IMG/VR virus record: IMGVR_UViG_3300048011_000762
Span: 1 to 22,341 of that record
Direction: 5' to 3' (one strand)
DNA from: a virus
Length of the DNA stretch: 22,341 nt
The position numbers and the translations under genes were made by a program. The notes under the pieces were generated by a model. That model had not been told where the DNA came from. It saw only the letters and a program-made list of their open reading frames with translations, and did no database searches. This document shows, in pieces, positions 1,763 to 21,770 of this stretch (the first letter of the stretch is position 1; every line of letters begins with the position of its first letter).

Positions 1763-3100
1763 ATGGCGAATGAGGGTTACAGAAACGCTGGTGATATTGA
1801 ACTAAAACAATTAACTCTGATTACAAGATCAGGACAGATGTTTGATATCACAGAACTTATGCTTGAGATGAGCATATTTCAAAACTTGTATGATAAGAAT
1901 CTTACATGCGAAATTGTTATGTCTGATGCTACAGGTTTGATTGATGCTATAAAGCCTGTTAATAATGAAGTTGGTGGCTTGGCTGGTTCAGAAGTAATTC
2001 TTTTGCAATATAGAACACCATCAGAAGGAAATAGTATCAAGAAGCATCTGTTTGTTGTGAACAGCATCGACAACAGAAAACGCATTGATGAAAAGATTGA
2101 AGCATTTATCATTGAGTGTGTATCATTAGAAACTTTCGCTACAGTCGATAAAAAGATTTCACGGAGTTATGGTGGTGATAAAGGCAATACAATCGAAAAA
2201 ATGATGACTAGTCTGATCAAAGAATTTTATCAGAGTGAGATAATCAAAAAGACTTATACAGATATAAGCCAAGTGAATTTTGCAATAAAGAAAAAAATAA
2301 CGGTTGATACCACAAAAGGTTTGCACAAGTTTATTATACCGAGAATGACAGTTAGTAGTGCTATTGAGTTTTTCAGAACCGAAGCGACAAGTGATAAACT
2401 TGGTTCTTATTTTGTGTTCTATGAAGATACGCATGGTTTCAACTTTAGAAATATTGCAAATCTAGTTGAACAAGATATCAAAGCAACGTATCAGTATGAG
2501 CCATCTAATTATCAAGAAGGTGGCAAAAAAGCAGACGCACCGTTTACAGATGCATTCAAGATTATTTCGTTTGAGATTCTAAGGGATGCAGACATGCTTG
2601 ATAATATGGTTAGTGGACTGTATGGCTCTAGAAGTATTTTGATTGATCCTCTACGAAAGAAGTCTATTGAGAGGACATACACTTATGCTAGTGTGCATAA
2701 TAAATTTAGTAAACTGCAAGAGTTTCATATACCAGGAAACTCAAGTAAAGATGCGGTGATTGATTTGACTACAACAAGATTTCAGCATGATCAAATGCCT
2801 GTGTTTAATGAAGAGGCTGTAAGACCTAAGTCATCTGAAAGAATGAAGGCATTTAAGAGGGGCTATCATCATCACCTCTACAACAAAACTCTTGAGGTTG
2901 CAGTACACGGCAACTCTGAATTAAATGTTGGTGATGTTGTGTTCTTGAGTATACCTGTGGCCACTACTACAGAAGATGGCCAGAGGGAAGATAAATATAT
3001 GACAGGTAAACATTTGATTACCTCGTTGAGACATAAATTCGATAAAGAAACATTTGTAACAGTGTTTGAATGCTGTAAAGACACAGGGTTTAAGAAATGA
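1763..3100 (+). CDS. Baseplate hub protein, gp27-like
   Basis: The 445-aa product has the layout of T4 gp27-type (phage Mu gp44 / P2 gpD fold) hub proteins. The N-terminal beta domain, from about residue 10, contains ELKQLTLITRSGQMFDITEL and then NLTCEIVMSDATGLIDAI. The middle is helical. A C-terminal beta domain carries LNVGDVVFLSIPV and KYMTGKHLITSLRHKF. The NLYDKNLTCEIVMSDATGL block, describing a local deflection from a sheet, is typical of marine T4-like hub proteins. gp27 forms the trimeric ring between the gp5 spike and the tail tube, and gp5 lies two genes downstream here. T4 gp27 is 391 aa, so this version is somewhat longer. It begins 1 nt after the gp53 stop and its stop overlaps the next start (ATGA). 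The fold-level call is firmer than the exact T4 number. Confidence 0.72.
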   Translation: MANEGYRNAGDIELKQLTLITRSGQMFDITELMLEMSIFQNLYDKNLTCEIVMSDATGLIDAIKPVNNEVGGLAGSEVILLQYRTPSEGNSIKKHLFVVNSIDNRKRIDEKIEAFIIECVSLETFATVDKKISRSYGGDKGNTIEKMMTSLIKEFYQSEIIKKTYTDISQVNFAIKKKITVDTTKGLHKFIIPRMTVSSAIEFFRTEATSDKLGSYFVFYEDTHGFNFRNIANLVEQDIKATYQYEPSNYQEGGKKADAPFTDAFKIISFEILRDADMLDNMVSGLYGSRSILIDPLRKKSIERTYTYASVHNKFSKLQEFHIPGNSSKDAVIDLTTTRFQHDQMPVFNEEAVRPKSSERMKAFKRGYHHHLYNKTLEVAVHGNSELNVGDVVFLSIPVATTTEDGQREDKYMTGKHLITSLRHKFDKETFVTVFECCKDTGFKK

Positions 3101-3972
3101 TACTAGGACTAAAAGAATATTTTACACAGAAGTTGTTTCAGCAACTAGATGAAAAACTCATCATGTACAATCAGGGCAAGAGATATGGTCAGATTGTTTT
3201 CTTGGCTGGTGGCGCTGGATCAGGCAAAGGCTTTGCTATCAGCAACTTTATGGAAGGCGACAAGTTTAAGATTCGTGATGTAGATGAATGGAAGAAAGCA
3301 TTTCAGAAGATTGACGAATTGAAGAAAAAGTATCCAGAGATTCGTGGTCTAGATTTGCGTAAGCCTAAAGATGTTTTCAAGTTGCATATGTTTGTAAAGA
3401 AGGCTGGTATTAAAGAGAACACACTAAAAGTAATGTTGGACGACTTAGTACGCTCAGGCGCCGCATCAAAGGGTACACTGCCAAATATCATCTTCGATAT
3501 TACACTAAAAGATATTAGTGATATCACAAGTGTTCTGCCGCAACTCAGATCCGCAGGCTATAAAGCAGAGAACATACATATTACATGGGTACTTACAAAC
3601 TATCATACGGCAGTAAAGAATAATGCTGGTCGTAGCAGGGTTGTACCAGGAGATATTCTGTTGAAGACGCATGAGGGCGCATCTGGAACAATGTCAGAGA
3701 TTATTAAAGGTAAGATGCCTAGAGGTGTCAATGGTGCTGTCAACGTGATTCTGAACAATAGAGAAAATACTATTCCATGGACAGACAAAGACGGAAAGCC
3801 AATTAAGACCTCAGCGGGCAATATTGTTGTGAAAGATTTCACATATATTAATTTGAAGAAAGAGGGCAAGCGTTTCAGAAGAGAAGCGTCTGTCCAACAG
3901 CAAATCTATCAGTGGATCAAGGACAATGTTCCTGAAACCGCATTACAGGCTATTGATGAACCAAAGGAGTAA
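3097..3972 (+). CDS. P-loop kinase, zeta-toxin/adenylate-kinase-like
   Basis: The 291-aa product is not a recognisable structural protein. After a strand (QIVFLA) it has a P-loop GGAGSGKG at residues 38-45, with K44 as the phosphate-binding lysine. The residue after the lysine is Gly, as in adenylate kinases, rather than Ser/Thr. A second strand NIIFDIT places D134 where Walker B or catalytic aspartates sit. It is followed by a GYKAENIHITWVLTNYHTAV stretch and an arginine-containing lid-like segment, GRSRVVPGDILLKTH (R179, R181). This order matches zeta-toxin/AAA_33-type small-molecule kinases. The substrate is unknown. The start overlaps the hub stop by 4 bases, so it is co-translated with baseplate genes. 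Possible roles are an assembly ATPase, a nucleotide or sugar kinase, or a toxin-like kinase; none can be chosen from sequence. Confidence 0.72.
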   Translation: MILGLKEYFTQKLFQQLDEKLIMYNQGKRYGQIVFLAGGAGSGKGFAISNFMEGDKFKIRDVDEWKKAFQKIDELKKKYPEIRGLDLRKPKDVFKLHMFVKKAGIKENTLKVMLDDLVRSGAASKGTLPNIIFDITLKDISDITSVLPQLRSAGYKAENIHITWVLTNYHTAVKNNAGRSRVVPGDILLKTHEGASGTMSEIIKGKMPRGVNGAVNVILNNRENTIPWTDKDGKPIKTSAGNIVVKDFTYINLKKEGKRFRREASVQQQIYQWIKDNVPETALQAIDEPKE

Positions 3973-3975
3973 ACA

Positions 3976-4230
3976 ATGCCACTACCAGGATCCCCTAGAA
4001 ATAAAAAATCAGAGGTTCTCCAAGAAATTGTAGAGCCAACACCAACACCAGTAGTTGAAGAAGCACCTGCACCTCAAGTACTACAAGAGATTGTAGAGCC
4101 TGATGTCCAGATCCCACTTGCGCCTGCTGTTAAAGAGGAAGTACATGATACAGTCACAACACTCCCTAAAAATAGAGTCACAAGAAAAGTCACAAAGTCA
4201 GGCCACAGATTCAACAAATCATCTGACTGA
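3976..4230 (+). CDS. Small Pro/Glu-rich protein of unknown function
   Basis: An 84-aa product begins 3 nt after the kinase stop. Residues 12-60 are rich in Pro, Glu and Val and contain the octapeptide VLQEIVEP twice (residues 14-21 and 35-42), separated by a PTPTPVVEEAPAP linker, so this part is probably extended and disordered. The C-terminal 25 residues are basic (NRVTRKVTKSGHRFNKSSD). No family is recognised. Just downstream of its TGA, two other reading frames stay open up to the gp5 start, so the annotated end may not be the functional one (see findings). Its place directly before gp5 suggests a role near the central spike or hub, but that is only inference. Confidence 0.55.
   Translation: MPLPGSPRNKKSEVLQEIVEPTPTPVVEEAPAPQVLQEIVEPDVQIPLAPAVKEEVHDTVTTLPKNRVTRKVTKSGHRFNKSSD
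4037..4101 (+). repeat. Second copy and linker of a 21-codon direct repeat
   Basis: The stretch around 4015-4038 (VLQEIVEP, residues 14-21) recurs at 4078-4101 (residues 35-42), exactly 21 codons apart. The DNA copies differ mainly at third codon positions, so selection seems to act on the protein. The marked span covers the linker and the second copy. Confidence 0.6.
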
Positions 4231-4339
4231 TTGGGTAGACGAAAAAGAAAAGCAAAAAGATACATTGAAAAACGGTCTTTTGAGTTTTTTAAAGTATGTA
4301 GAAAAGGTGGAAGATGAACAACTTCCTAGGCAGAAATGA
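4229..4339 (+). other. Open tail in shifted frame, possible frameshift extension
   Basis: If the ribosome skips one base at the TGA ending the small Pro/Glu-rich gene (4228-4230), it enters a frame open for 36 codons to a TGA at 4337-4339, overlapping the gp5 start by 26 nt. The peptide begins DWVDEKEKQKDTLKNGLLSF and continues LKYVEKVEDEQLPRQK; it is charged and amphipathic and looks like real protein. No ATG with a ribosome-binding site lies in this frame near its beginning. Alternatively, readthrough of TGA 4228 in the original frame gives a very basic 28-residue tail (GRRKRKAKRYIEKR...) ending at TGA 4315-4317, in an ATGA overlap with gp5. A plain untranslated gap is the null explanation. 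Confidence 0.35.
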
Positions 4340-5165
4340 TTTTACATGGTTTTTCGGTGTCGTGGAGGACCGTAACGACCCTGTACAACTCGGAAGAGTC
4401 CGTGTACGGTGTTATGGTTGGCACACCGATGATAAAGACCAGATACCTACTCGACACCTCCCATGGGCTCAAGTCGTTCAAGATGTCACATCTGCGGCTG
4501 TTAGCGGAAAGGGCACCTCGCCAACAGGATTAGTTGAGGGATCTTGGGTTATTGGATTCTTTGCAGATGGCGAACGGGCTCAAGAACCTATTATCATGGG
4601 AAGTCTAGCGGGTATACCAGAATCACTTGCTGATACGACAAAGGGATTCAATGATCCTAATGGCGTGTATCCTCTCTATAAAGATGAGAGTGATGTAAAT
4701 AGGTTAGCAAGAGGTACCAATACTATTACAAAGACGATTGATGGTACCAACTCTGAACCTTCTTCACCTTATGCTGCCCAGTATCCTAAAAATCATGTGA
4801 CTGAAACCGAGAGTGGTCATGTGGTTGAATTTGATGATACACCCAATGCAGAGCGTATTCATATCTATCACAAATCTGGAACTTTTGTTGAGATGCATCC
4901 AAATGGAGATGTAGTTACCCATCATCAAAATGGCTTTAGAACTGTGACTGGTAATGACAAACTGCATGTGACAGGTGATTTGAATATTGTTGCGGATGGT
5001 AACATTACAATAGATGGCAAAACTATCAATCTAAACAGTGGTACTCAGGGTGCTGCCAGAATAGGCGATACTGCTGATACTGGCGATGATCCACCAGGAA
5101 TATCAGGTGCAGACGGTAGTAATGTTATTGAGAATGGATCTAAGACGGTCTTTATTGGAGACTAA
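4314..5165 (+). CDS. gp5: Baseplate central spike gp5, lysozyme-less
   Basis: The 283-aa product has an N-terminal OB fold (residues 12-100: FFGVVEDRNDPVQLGRVRVR, LPWAQVV, GLVEGSWVIGFFADGE, PIIMGSLAG), the standard gp5/VgrG signature. A linker (101-158) leads to a triple-stranded beta-helix region (160-245: SGHVVEFDDTPNAERIHIYH, GTFVEMHPNGD, DLNIVADGNITIDGKTI) and a Gly/Asp-rich tip. T4 gp5 (575 aa) carries a lysozyme domain between OB fold and helix; here the linker is too short for one and shows no lysozyme motif. The protein should form the trimeric membrane-piercing needle under the gp27-like hub. Translation likely starts at this ATG, preceded by AAAGGTGG at 4303-4310. A hairpin terminator follows the stop. 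Confidence 0.88.
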   Translation: MNNFLGRNDFTWFFGVVEDRNDPVQLGRVRVRCYGWHTDDKDQIPTRHLPWAQVVQDVTSAAVSGKGTSPTGLVEGSWVIGFFADGERAQEPIIMGSLAGIPESLADTTKGFNDPNGVYPLYKDESDVNRLARGTNTITKTIDGTNSEPSSPYAAQYPKNHVTETESGHVVEFDDTPNAERIHIYHKSGTFVEMHPNGDVVTHHQNGFRTVTGNDKLHVTGDLNIVADGNITIDGKTINLNSGTQGAARIGDTADTGDDPPGISGADGSNVIENGSKTVFIGD

Positions 5166-5221: not shown

Positions 5222-5247
5222 AATTTGTCAAGAGAAAAGTGAAAAAA

Positions 5248-5415
5248 ATGCACGACAATCTAATAAATTTATTTGAAACTTACATCGTTGAAAGCGAGAA
5301 GTTTGAGAGTGGAAACAAAACTGCAGGTACAAGAGCGAGAAAAGCCCTTGCTGAAATTTCAAAACTCTGTAAAGACAGACGCAAAGAAATTCAAGATTCA
5401 AAGAATGCCTCATAA
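5248..5415 (+). CDS. Histone H1-like (Hc1-type) small DNA-binding protein
   Basis: A 55-aa reading frame fills most of the gap between gp5 and gp25. The peptide starts MHDNLINLFETYIVESEKFE; its core (residues 21-54) contains SGNKTAGTRARKALAEISKL and DRRKEIQDSKNA. The GNKxAGTRARKAL...L...RKEIQ..KNA pattern is the signature of short histone H1-like (Hc1-type) proteins known from Bacteroidetes and found as small genes in phages. Such proteins bind DNA through a Lys/Arg-rich helix. Here it could help condense phage DNA or modulate transcription. The start has only a weak purine-rich leader (AGAGAAAAGTGAAAAAA). It is preceded by a probable terminator and ends 18 nt before gp25, so its expression may be separate from the hub block. 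A Cys at residue 41 is unusual for a DNA-compacting peptide. Confidence 0.7.
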   Translation: MHDNLINLFETYIVESEKFESGNKTAGTRARKALAEISKLCKDRRKEIQDSKNAS

Positions 5416-18258: not shown

Positions 18259-18474
18259 ATGAATGAATATGTGAAGGTCAAAGACAATGATGATTTGGTC
18301 AGAGACAAAGAAAACTCTGCCATTCTGAATGTTGACGCTGACGCTCTATCTAAATATAAGATGAGAAGAGAACAAGAACGAAAAAGAAATGAAGAGATTG
18401 ACACATTGAAGAAAGACGTTTCTGAAATAAAATCTCTTCTTTTACAAATGATAGATAAAGAAGGTAACAAATGA
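18259..18474 (+). CDS. Small coiled-coil protein before the fiber gene
   Basis: The 71-aa product has an N-terminal segment (NEYVKVKDNDDLVRDKENSA, then ILNVD) and a charged helix from about residue 30 to 66 (KYKMRREQERKRNEEIDTLK, VSEIKSLLLQMID) with leucine/isoleucine heptad spacing, a probable coiled coil. Small proteins with this 'YVKV...LVRD...AI(L/I)N' start followed by a coiled coil are a recurring type next to tail-fiber genes in marine T4-like phages; their role is not known to me. A good ribosome-binding site (AGAGG, 18249-18253) precedes the ATG. The stop overlaps the fiber start (ATGA), so the two are translationally coupled. It may be an assembly chaperone or a fiber-attachment protein. 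Confidence 0.7.
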   Translation: MNEYVKVKDNDDLVRDKENSAILNVDADALSKYKMRREQERKRNEEIDTLKKDVSEIKSLLLQMIDKEGNK

Positions 18475-21400
18475 CTGTTGCAGTATCAAACACAAATCTA
18501 AATGATAGTTTCAATACTTGGAGATTGAATACGAATCTAGCCGCAACCATTTTGAGCAACAATGTGGTAACTGTTTCTAGAGCGGGTTCTGCTAACAGAG
18601 GCGGTGCGGCTAAAGGTAACGGTCATGTCTCAGGCACATTTAGTGCTACCAATCTTAGAACTTCTACAATCAAGGGCGGTAATACAACAAGCGGAACAGG
18701 CGGTGCGCTTACAGTATCTTCTAATACAACATTCAATGGCTCACAAGTTACAGTCTCAGCAAATGCTACATTTTCAGGAAATGTAACATTTCAAACTGCT
18801 GGTACTGACCGCATTAATATGGGTGATGTCTCTCGCATTATTATTAGTGGCGGAACACCTGGTCAATTTATGCGACTTGCTGGCAGTACTGATAACCCTG
18901 ATTGGAAATCACTAACTCTTAGAGATATTACAGATTTATCATCCGACGCCGCTCCAATTATTCTTTCTGCCGCTAACACTACATTTAGTGACAACGGCGA
19001 TACTCCTCATTTAATTTTTGCGGCTAATAATGGCGCAGATAAAGTAGAAATTTATCTAGCATCTAATTCATCTGCCTCTACAGATTCGGACTTAATCGTT
19101 CAACTAGCCGGCACAAGTGCTAATGCATCTATATCAATTGTAAACTCTTCTAATACAGAAGTTGCATCAATCAGAGCGGATGGTACAATCTTTGCAACCT
19201 CAAATGTTACTGCAACTGGTATTACAACTGACGGCCATATTCTTCCGATAGGTGATGACGCAAGAGACTTGGGCGCACCAAATCGTGAGTTTAGAAATCT
19301 ATATATTGATGGTACTGCACAAGTAGATATTTTAGAAGTTGCAACTGGCGCATCACAGGGTGTAAATAGTTCCTTGATCCCGCAGCCGAATGGCACACGA
19401 AATCTAGGTTCAACAACTCGTAAGTGGAGTACACTCTGGGCGCAAAACACTAATGGTGGCACTGGTGTATTTAATACTCTTGGAGTAAGTGGCGCATTTA
19501 CTGCTAACGGTACAGCAACATTCAATGGCGGCTTCTCATTAAATGGCGATGTCAATATTGGAAATGCTACATCCGATACACTAACAATTACTGCACAGAT
19601 TGATTCAGACTTTGATCCACAAACTGGCACACGGAGAAGCATGGGTGCAACGAACAATCGTTGGCATGAAGTCTATGCAAATACAGTATATGCTAACACT
19701 ATAAATGTTGACAATAATGCAACTATTAATGGTGATCTAACTGTAAACGGAACAACGTCTGTTGCTTCTGGCCAGACATTCTCCTCACCAGTCGGTAGAT
19801 TCACCAATGTACATGCTACAACTCTTGCGGAGTTTTTCGGCACAACAATCATCGGTAATGATGCTTCAGACAATGTAACAATTACTGCACAGATTGCTTC
19901 TAATTTGATTCCAGATGCTGATGATACTTATGATTTAGGTACAAATCTACTACAGTGGCAAGACCTCTATATTGACGGCACCGCATCAATTGACATATTG
20001 ACAGTTGACGAAGCCGCAACTCTGGGTGGAGATAGAGCGACTATTTCTGGTAACGCTCATATCACCGGCACTGCTTTCATCGGTGGTGGTATCAAAGATG
20101 GCTCAACAACAATCGTTGGTGCTAACAGTAAACTACACGCAAACAACACTATCACCGCTAAGACAATCACAACTACAATGATTGCTAACACTATGTCAAG
20201 TGGTGGTAACTTTGGTTCTGCTTCACAGATTCCTATCATCAATGTAAATGATAGAGGACAAGTTACTGGTATTAGTGAGACAACGGTTGATGTTGTAACT
20301 GGAATAACTTATACTTCAGCGAATAATAATATTCGCATTTCAACGGCAGATGGTTCTACATTTGATGATGTAATCGACCCAGCAACAACTTCTGTAAAAG
20401 GTGTTGCATCGTTTGACAGTGGAGACTTTGATGTATCATCTGGTGCAGTCTCCCTCAAAGATGCCTCTACTGGTGCAGTTCTAACTGTCAATGGAACATC
20501 AAATGAAGTAAATGTTTCACGATCTAACGGCACAGTGACAGTTGGTCTACCAGATGATGTAACAGTTGCGGGCCAGTTAAACGTAGGTGAAAATGTTGTT
20601 GTCTCTGGCAACTTGATTGTTTCTGGTACAACTACAACCGTTAATACTGAAACAGTAAATATTGCTGATAACATCATTGTTCTTAACAGTAATCATTCTG
20701 GTTCTCCAACAGAAGATGGTGGTATTTCAATTGAGCGTGGTAGCAGTGCTGATAAAACACTCATTTGGGATGAAGGTAACGACAGATGGACAGTTGGTTC
20801 TGAAACCTTTGTTGCCGGAACATTTCTTGGCGATCTTTCAGGTTCAGCAACAACTCTAGCTACTGCTCGTACAATTGGAATGACGGGTGACGTTGTTTGG
20901 ACATCAGCGGCATTTGATGGTAGTGGCAATGTAACAGGTACGGCAACAATTCAACCAAACTCTGTTGCTCTTGGCACAGACACGACTGGCAACTATGTTG
21001 CTTCACTTACTCCAGGTAATTTGATTGACGTATCAGGCAACAGCGGTGAAAGTGCAACACCAACTATTGATGTTGATCTTTCGGAATTGACCACGTCTAC
21101 TTCAAATGGTGACGGAGACTTCTTTGTAGTTGTTGATAGTTCAAATGCACAAAAGAAACTTACAAAAGGTAACATTGCAATCTCTGGTTTTAACACCACT
21201 AACGGTATTGCACTTGGCACAGACACGACTGGTAACTATATTGCTGCTGTGTCTGCCGGTAATGGTATTGATGTAAGTGGCTCTGGTGAGGGCGCTACTG
21301 CAACTATTTCAATTGAATCAGACTTGCGTGGCGAGGTTACAAAGATCGGTGCAGATACAAATGACTTTTATGATATCACCTCAACTACACATGATTGGTA

Positions 21401-21770
21401 TCTAGATGGCGTTCTTGATATGCGTCTTGAAAATGATGGTGATCTTCATGTTGATGGTGACTTAGTGTCACATTCTACTACTACAAATTCCGATCGCAAA
21501 TTGAAGACAGATATCAATAATGTAGATAATGCACTTGAAAAGGTCGAAAAACTAAACGGTGTAGAATTTACATGGATAAAGAGTGGAAAAAGAAGTGCAG
21601 GTGTTATTGCTCAGGATGTTTTAGAGGTTCTACCGCAGGCAGTGAAAGAAGTGAACGATCTAAATACTGATGAGAAAAATCTAACAGTCAATTATGATTC
21701 CCTACATGCACTACTTATTGAGGCAGTAAAAGAACTTTCTGCCAAAGTTAAAGAACTAGAGAGCAAGTAA
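18471..21770 (+). CDS. Tail fiber with C-terminal S74 self-cleaving chaperone
   Basis: The 1099-aa product starts with LNDSFNTWRLNTNLAATILS, a virion-attachment type N-terminus. The shaft is beta-rich and low in charge, with four copies of an LG..x..(W/F)..LY motif at about residues 266, 311, 390 and 488 (for instance DLGAPNREFRNLYIDGTA), and two GTDTTGNY repeats at about 835 and 916. The C-terminal 95 residues are an S74 intramolecular chaperone: SDRKLKTDI, with S1007 and K1012 corresponding to the Ser911/Lys916 cleavage pair of endosialidase NF, then GVEFTWIKSGKRSAGVIAQD, LPQAV and a final helix. After trimer folding the chaperone should cut itself off just before S1007. The region between about 550 and 1000 probably includes the receptor-binding part. 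The start overlaps the previous stop by 4 bases, and the stop overlaps the next start by one. Confidence 0.9.
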   Translation: MTVAVSNTNLNDSFNTWRLNTNLAATILSNNVVTVSRAGSANRGGAAKGNGHVSGTFSATNLRTSTIKGGNTTSGTGGALTVSSNTTFNGSQVTVSANATFSGNVTFQTAGTDRINMGDVSRIIISGGTPGQFMRLAGSTDNPDWKSLTLRDITDLSSDAAPIILSAANTTFSDNGDTPHLIFAANNGADKVEIYLASNSSASTDSDLIVQLAGTSANASISIVNSSNTEVASIRADGTIFATSNVTATGITTDGHILPIGDDARDLGAPNREFRNLYIDGTAQVDILEVATGASQGVNSSLIPQPNGTRNLGSTTRKWSTLWAQNTNGGTGVFNTLGVSGAFTANGTATFNGGFSLNGDVNIGNATSDTLTITAQIDSDFDPQTGTRRSMGATNNRWHEVYANTVYANTINVDNNATINGDLTVNGTTSVASGQTFSSPVGRFTNVHATTLAEFFGTTIIGNDASDNVTITAQIASNLIPDADDTYDLGTNLLQWQDLYIDGTASIDILTVDEAATLGGDRATISGNAHITGTAFIGGGIKDGSTTIVGANSKLHANNTITAKTITTTMIANTMSSGGNFGSASQIPIINVNDRGQVTGISETTVDVVTGITYTSANNNIRISTADGSTFDDVIDPATTSVKGVASFDSGDFDVSSGAVSLKDASTGAVLTVNGTSNEVNVSRSNGTVTVGLPDDVTVAGQLNVGENVVVSGNLIVSGTTTTVNTETVNIADNIIVLNSNHSGSPTEDGGISIERGSSADKTLIWDEGNDRWTVGSETFVAGTFLGDLSGSATTLATARTIGMTGDVVWTSAAFDGSGNVTGTATIQPNSVALGTDTTGNYVASLTPGNLIDVSGNSGESATPTIDVDLSELTTSTSNGDGDFFVVVDSSNAQKKLTKGNIAISGFNTTNGIALGTDTTGNYIAAVSAGNGIDVSGSGEGATATISIESDLRGEVTKIGADTNDFYDITSTTHDWYLDGVLDMRLENDGDLHVDGDLVSHSTTTNSDRKLKTDINNVDNALEKVEKLNGVEFTWIKSGKRSAGVIAQDVLEVLPQAVKEVNDLNTDEKNLTVNYDSLHALLIEAVKELSAKVKELESK
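20970..21232 (+). repeat. Direct repeat in the fiber shaft near the receptor-binding end
   Basis: A 20-bp sequence starting CTTGGCACAGACACG is identical at 20970-20989 and 21213-21232, 243 bp (81 codons) apart and in frame. Both copies continue into similar protein: GTDTTGNYVASLTPGN and GTDTTGNYIAAVSAGN, then IDVSG. The exact DNA identity amid diverged flanks points to recent recombination or conversion. Confidence 0.75.

Follow-up and report, generated by a model that had tools for sequence, protein, structure and literature searches.

A putative overlapping gene between a small Pro/Glu-rich gene and gp5 in the baseplate-hub operon of a T4-like phage

The question raised by this locus is how to read the 83 nt that separate the stop codon of a small Pro/Glu-rich gene, here named N, from the ATG of gp5 at position 4314. 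The window is the whole stretch of DNA analysed, a viral record of 22,341 bases with a T4-like phage gene set. A first-pass annotation had placed the end of N at the TGA at 4228 and had noted that skipping one base there gives 36 further codons (DWVDEKEK...LPRQK) that end in a TGA at 4337-4339, 26 nt into gp5; we confirm the gap and both sets of coordinates. The annotation explained this continuation by a +1 frameshift at the TGA, by stop readthrough, or by a single-base assembly error. It overlooked how far ahead of the TGA the +1 frame is already open, and that this frame has a start at 4145 preceded by a Shine-Dalgarno (SD) sequence. Our preferred reading of the sequence, to which we give a probability of roughly 0.78, is that the gap holds a separate overlapping gene, here named C, started internally in N at ATG 4145. 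The features are collected in Table 1.

Table 1. Features of the N/C/gp5 region, in positions of the window.
Feature	Coordinates	Strand	Remarks
N gene, Pro/Glu-rich, 84 aa, LQEIVEP repeats, ATG 3976	3976..4230	+	SD AAAGGAG, -6.6 kcal
Candidate internal SD AAAGAGGA, inside N	4132..4139	+	-5.8 kcal with CCUCCU; 5 nt before ATG 4145
Putative gene C, 64 aa, MIQSQHSLK...NHLTDWVDEKEKQKDTLKNGLLSFLKYVEKVEDEQLPRQK, +1 frame relative to N	4145..4339	+	core kept in 30 distinct ORFs
TGA closing N, the proposed shift site, context GAC TGA	4228..4230	+	not slip-prone in the window
AAGGTGG, likely gp5 SD, within the C gene	4304..4310	+	found by eye; duplex score only -2.1
gp5-like baseplate hub protein with OB domain	4314..5165	+	Pfam Gp5_OB 1.7e-33; PHROG 430 7e-90

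The gene order in the window is tail-tube cap, gp53, gp27-like, a zeta-toxin-like P-loop protein, N, gp5, and others. The P-loop protein (291 aa, 3097-3972, between the gp27-like gene and N) matches Pfam Zeta_toxin with 24.7 bits (cut-off 22.3) and PHROG 5268, a family of unknown function, at 1.3e-55, and it has tblastn matches in 206 phage records. Between gp5 and gp25, in the middle of the baseplate operon, a 58-aa ORF (5239-5415) matches Pfam Hc1 (histone H1-like) above cut-off, at 1.3e-15. A large tail-fibre-like ORF occupies 18471-21770; its end reads SDRKLKTDI..., which we take to resemble an intramolecular chaperone domain.

Conservation of the +1 frame

We gathered relatives from IMG/VR by a gp5 search, a tail-profile search, and then searches with the gp5 of three relatives. 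Scanning 400 sequences with profiles of both halves gave 30 distinct tail ORFs. The +1 relation to N is constant in 49/49 tail-carrying loci (48 IMG/VR contigs and the window), which are not independent and amount to 22 distinct N 3' ends. In the stretch between the N stop and the start of gp5, the +1 frame changes mainly synonymously: the pair L094/L098 differs by 8 synonymous and 0 nonsynonymous changes in 31 codons, and the pair L097/L094 by 8 and 2. By the constant relation and these substitutions, the +1 frame past the N stop is truly coding, under purifying selection. The same scan found N present without C in 34 distinct ORFs, and never found C without a preceding N gene. Among five C-less N ends that we read, PRKKKS, KAKKKK and SKKLFG resemble the ends of N linked to C. 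Since N occurs alone with similar ends, we take its stop to be genuine.

The first-pass annotation had doubted that the gap is plain untranslated spacer, and this holds for the +1 frame and fails for the readthrough frame. In the window, readthrough would indeed add 28 codons and close in an ATGA overlap with gp5, but that frame is not conserved, and most relatives have further in-frame stops just past the first one (for instance L005-L017). What lies downstream of the stop in relatives is not an unrelated spacer; it is the conserved +1 frame, which we read as a separate overlapping gene.

Upstream of the stop, where C would overlap N by 86 nt (its overlap with gp5 is 26 nt), the constraint is uneven. 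The length of the open +1 frame is no greater than chance (combined p 0.37) and is uninformative. The synonymous rate of N in the overlap is not lower in the pair L092/L097 (7/22 codons there vs 2/33 outside), and it is reduced in L120/L123 (1/17 vs 13/40 outside); because it is not lower overall, the C tail in the overlap would be little constrained. Particular residues do persist. In N ends of the KVLGLF type, the second-last codon is CTC, ATC or GTC in 9/9 cases while N varies between Leu, Ile and Val, so that a Ser is kept in the C frame before the stop; CTC is otherwise a rare choice (36/423 Leu codons). The tail residues HL[TS]D are kept in most relatives, and in the window, L085 and L086 they precede the N stop (the window encodes NHLT before its TGA), too early to result from a shift at the TGA.

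At loci L025-L041, a different small protein (MAEEFLQEIKEPKHTDDPHDS...) with an LQEI motif, encoded in one frame, replaces N and C upstream of gp5, and in several of these loci it also terminates inside gp5. We considered it as an unshifted homologue and dropped it as evidence, because its C-like end is a shadow of the gp5 start present in both.

The candidate start signal inside N

The proposed start in the window has the form AAAGAGGA-N5-ATG, with the ATG in the C frame. Only 2.9% of background ATGs reach -5 kcal or below, and 10/15 control genes of the window have SDs weaker than -3.5. Comparable signals occur in relatives, either before an ATG, as in AGGAGG-TTCTTG-ATG (L119), GGAG-CAGTTAG-ATG (L120) and AGAGGG-CAGAGA-ATG (L107), or before a TTG, which would serve as start in several relatives, as in AGGAGG-TTCTCG-TTG (L114). 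To obtain an expectation we kept the N protein and redrew the N codons. A start with an SD of -5 kcal or below in the open +1 frame is found in 14/18 representatives, against a mean of 3.5 expected under this synonymous resampling and a maximum of 10/18 in 2000 rounds; the representatives share ancestry, so the result is not an exact probability. An earlier run of the test gave 15/19 representatives against 3.7 expected, and 2/19 for the +2 frame.

A better control than the resampling is the comparison of N genes with and without C. In the [HY]EE motif of N, a GAG at the first Glu codon makes the Shine-Dalgarno sequence, and GAG is found there in 10/12 ORFs with C and in 1/9 without it (21 distinct ORFs; one-sided Fisher by hand 1.7e-3, with rows that are not independent). 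The window lineage, where the motif is absent in such form, is outside this set. On the same side, L162 has a C-frame stop between the SD and the TTG. The start signal thus occurs above chance and is linked to the presence of C.

There are exceptions. A strong internal SD is absent in 4/18 representatives (L097, L102, L104 and L109), and the loci without a good one are those of the L097 type, L102-L105 and L109/L110. At L185 (1728-1998), N carries GAGGA and a TTG in the +1 frame while the tail ORF is missing, which may be what is left after C was lost. We also tried ATG 4103 as the start of C, which would give a 78-aa ORF, and rejected it; its SD is weak (-2.9), and L084/L085 have no ATG there.

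In the mechanism that we propose, ribosomes would initiate C at ATG 4145 inside N using the SD at 4132-4139, read the +1 frame past the N stop, and end 26 nt inside gp5. One mRNA would then yield N and C as two proteins, each from its own initiation, and recoding would be unneeded in the window. Phage gene pairs that overlap in part and have an internal ribosome binding site are known, nested T4 genes such as 30.3/30.3' among them. N/C is like these pairs in that the second gene begins within the first in another frame, from an SD and a start of its own; it differs in having no convincing Pfam, PHROG or PDB family and in that several relatives would start with TTG.

The N stop and the case for recoding

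The main alternative is a programmed +1 frameshift at the N stop, of the kind known from bacterial release factor 2 (prfB), by which N and C would be fused; N/C shares with prfB a conserved +1 frame beyond the stop. We consider it unlikely. It would account for the +1 relation being constant in all 49 loci, and a TTT or CTT precedes a stop starting with T in 9/22 distinct 3' ends. The first-pass annotation would have taken a conserved stop together with a conserved downstream frame in relatives as support for recoding, and they have the second without the first: the 49 loci show 16 different P-site/stop contexts, with TTT TAA/TGA and CTT TAA but also GAC, GAG, AAT, CAT, AAA, AAG, AAC, AGT, GGA, CTC, ATT and GTT before the stop, against an RF2 shift site, CUU_U, that is described as highly conserved in PMC5009743. 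In the window, the junction AAC AAA TCA TCT GAC TGA has no slip-prone P-site codon and no SD-like stimulator adjoining it, and NHLT lies ahead of the TGA. Unlike prfB, then, N/C has no conserved shift site, has a non-slip-prone codon in the window, and in several lineages has a C frame that is conserved already ahead of the stop. Listeria phage PSA likewise has phage structural genes (capsid and tail shaft) with a +1-frame extension; it shifts on a proline codon, according to PMC5009743, and there is no proline codon at the window junction (TCT GAC TGA). Finally, a start signal elsewhere would account for C, and N alone has similar ends. The frameshift proposed for the window is not supported, given the unconserved, non-slip-prone stop context and a conserved tail that partly precedes the TGA, and internal initiation would make it needless.

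A shift is conceivable in a minority of relatives. In L102-L105, GGNGGAG-N2-TTT TGA, found by eye only in 2/22 distinct ends, places an SD-like sequence two bases ahead of TTT TGA in a prfB-like layout; these loci have no good internal SD, and conservation extends in N as far as the stop and begins in the C frame only there. One could then propose both routes, with internal initiation in most lineages and frameshifting in the L097 type, L102-L105 and perhaps L109/L110. The distribution is complementary, as all four of the 18 representatives lacking a strong internal SD have NTT before the N stop. This arrangement seems very unlikely to us, given that the L097 type retains a C-frame Ser-x-Ser-Phe before the stop, that SDs as weak as those of the control genes above are common in the window, and that the RF2-like layout occurs in only two lineages. 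The remaining alternative, an assembly error or a broken gene in the window, starts from the fact that one single-base indel would join both frames. We regard it as excluded, because the same arrangement is found in 48 other contigs (22 distinct 3' ends in all), and the C frame is under purifying selection. Internal initiation of a separate C gene is the reading that we retain.

The predicted C product and its meaning

The predicted C protein is small, with a basic N-terminal tail under little constraint and an amphipathic helix that is strongly conserved. In the structure model (22 aligned sequences; mean pLDDT 75 and pTM 0.40 overall), residues 6-58 are helical, blocks within 31-50 reach a mean pLDDT of 94-96, and the N-terminal tail is of low confidence. 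We found no convincing family match for C in Pfam or PHROG and none among PDB sequences. Weak matches to two coil-like profiles were not believed: phrog_9014, in 6/22 members (best 0.0026), and MitMem_reg, in 14/22 (best 0.0017), where the first member reaches 13.7 bits and the cut-off is 26.6. The genome contigs searched gave no relative of C, the named phages gave none of N or C (one search returned only matches with E 7 to 8), and the literature searched, mostly abstracts, gave no account of the N/C pair. Within the libraries searched C is new as a family; the gene arrangement is ordinary in kind.

We infer that start 4145 is used in the cell and that C has a role in the hub. Its baseplate hub neighbours gp53, gp27-like and gp5 suggest that C may serve hub assembly, as a helper or as a small part of the hub.

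The constant +1 relation found here can mimic programmed frameshifting, and similar cases elsewhere can be sorted by synonymous resampling combined with a look at relatives without the second frame. A quite unlikely evolutionary scenario is that an RF2-like +1 frameshift joins N and C in L102-L105, and perhaps in the L097 type, and that the internal start is used in sister lineages, including that of the window, the two mechanisms having replaced each other in phage evolution. Should a shift occur at the L102-L105 junction, one could observe there how recoding and internal initiation swap places. On our preferred reading, marine T4-like phages would have in their baseplate-hub operon one more small conserved gene, without a match to any described family.
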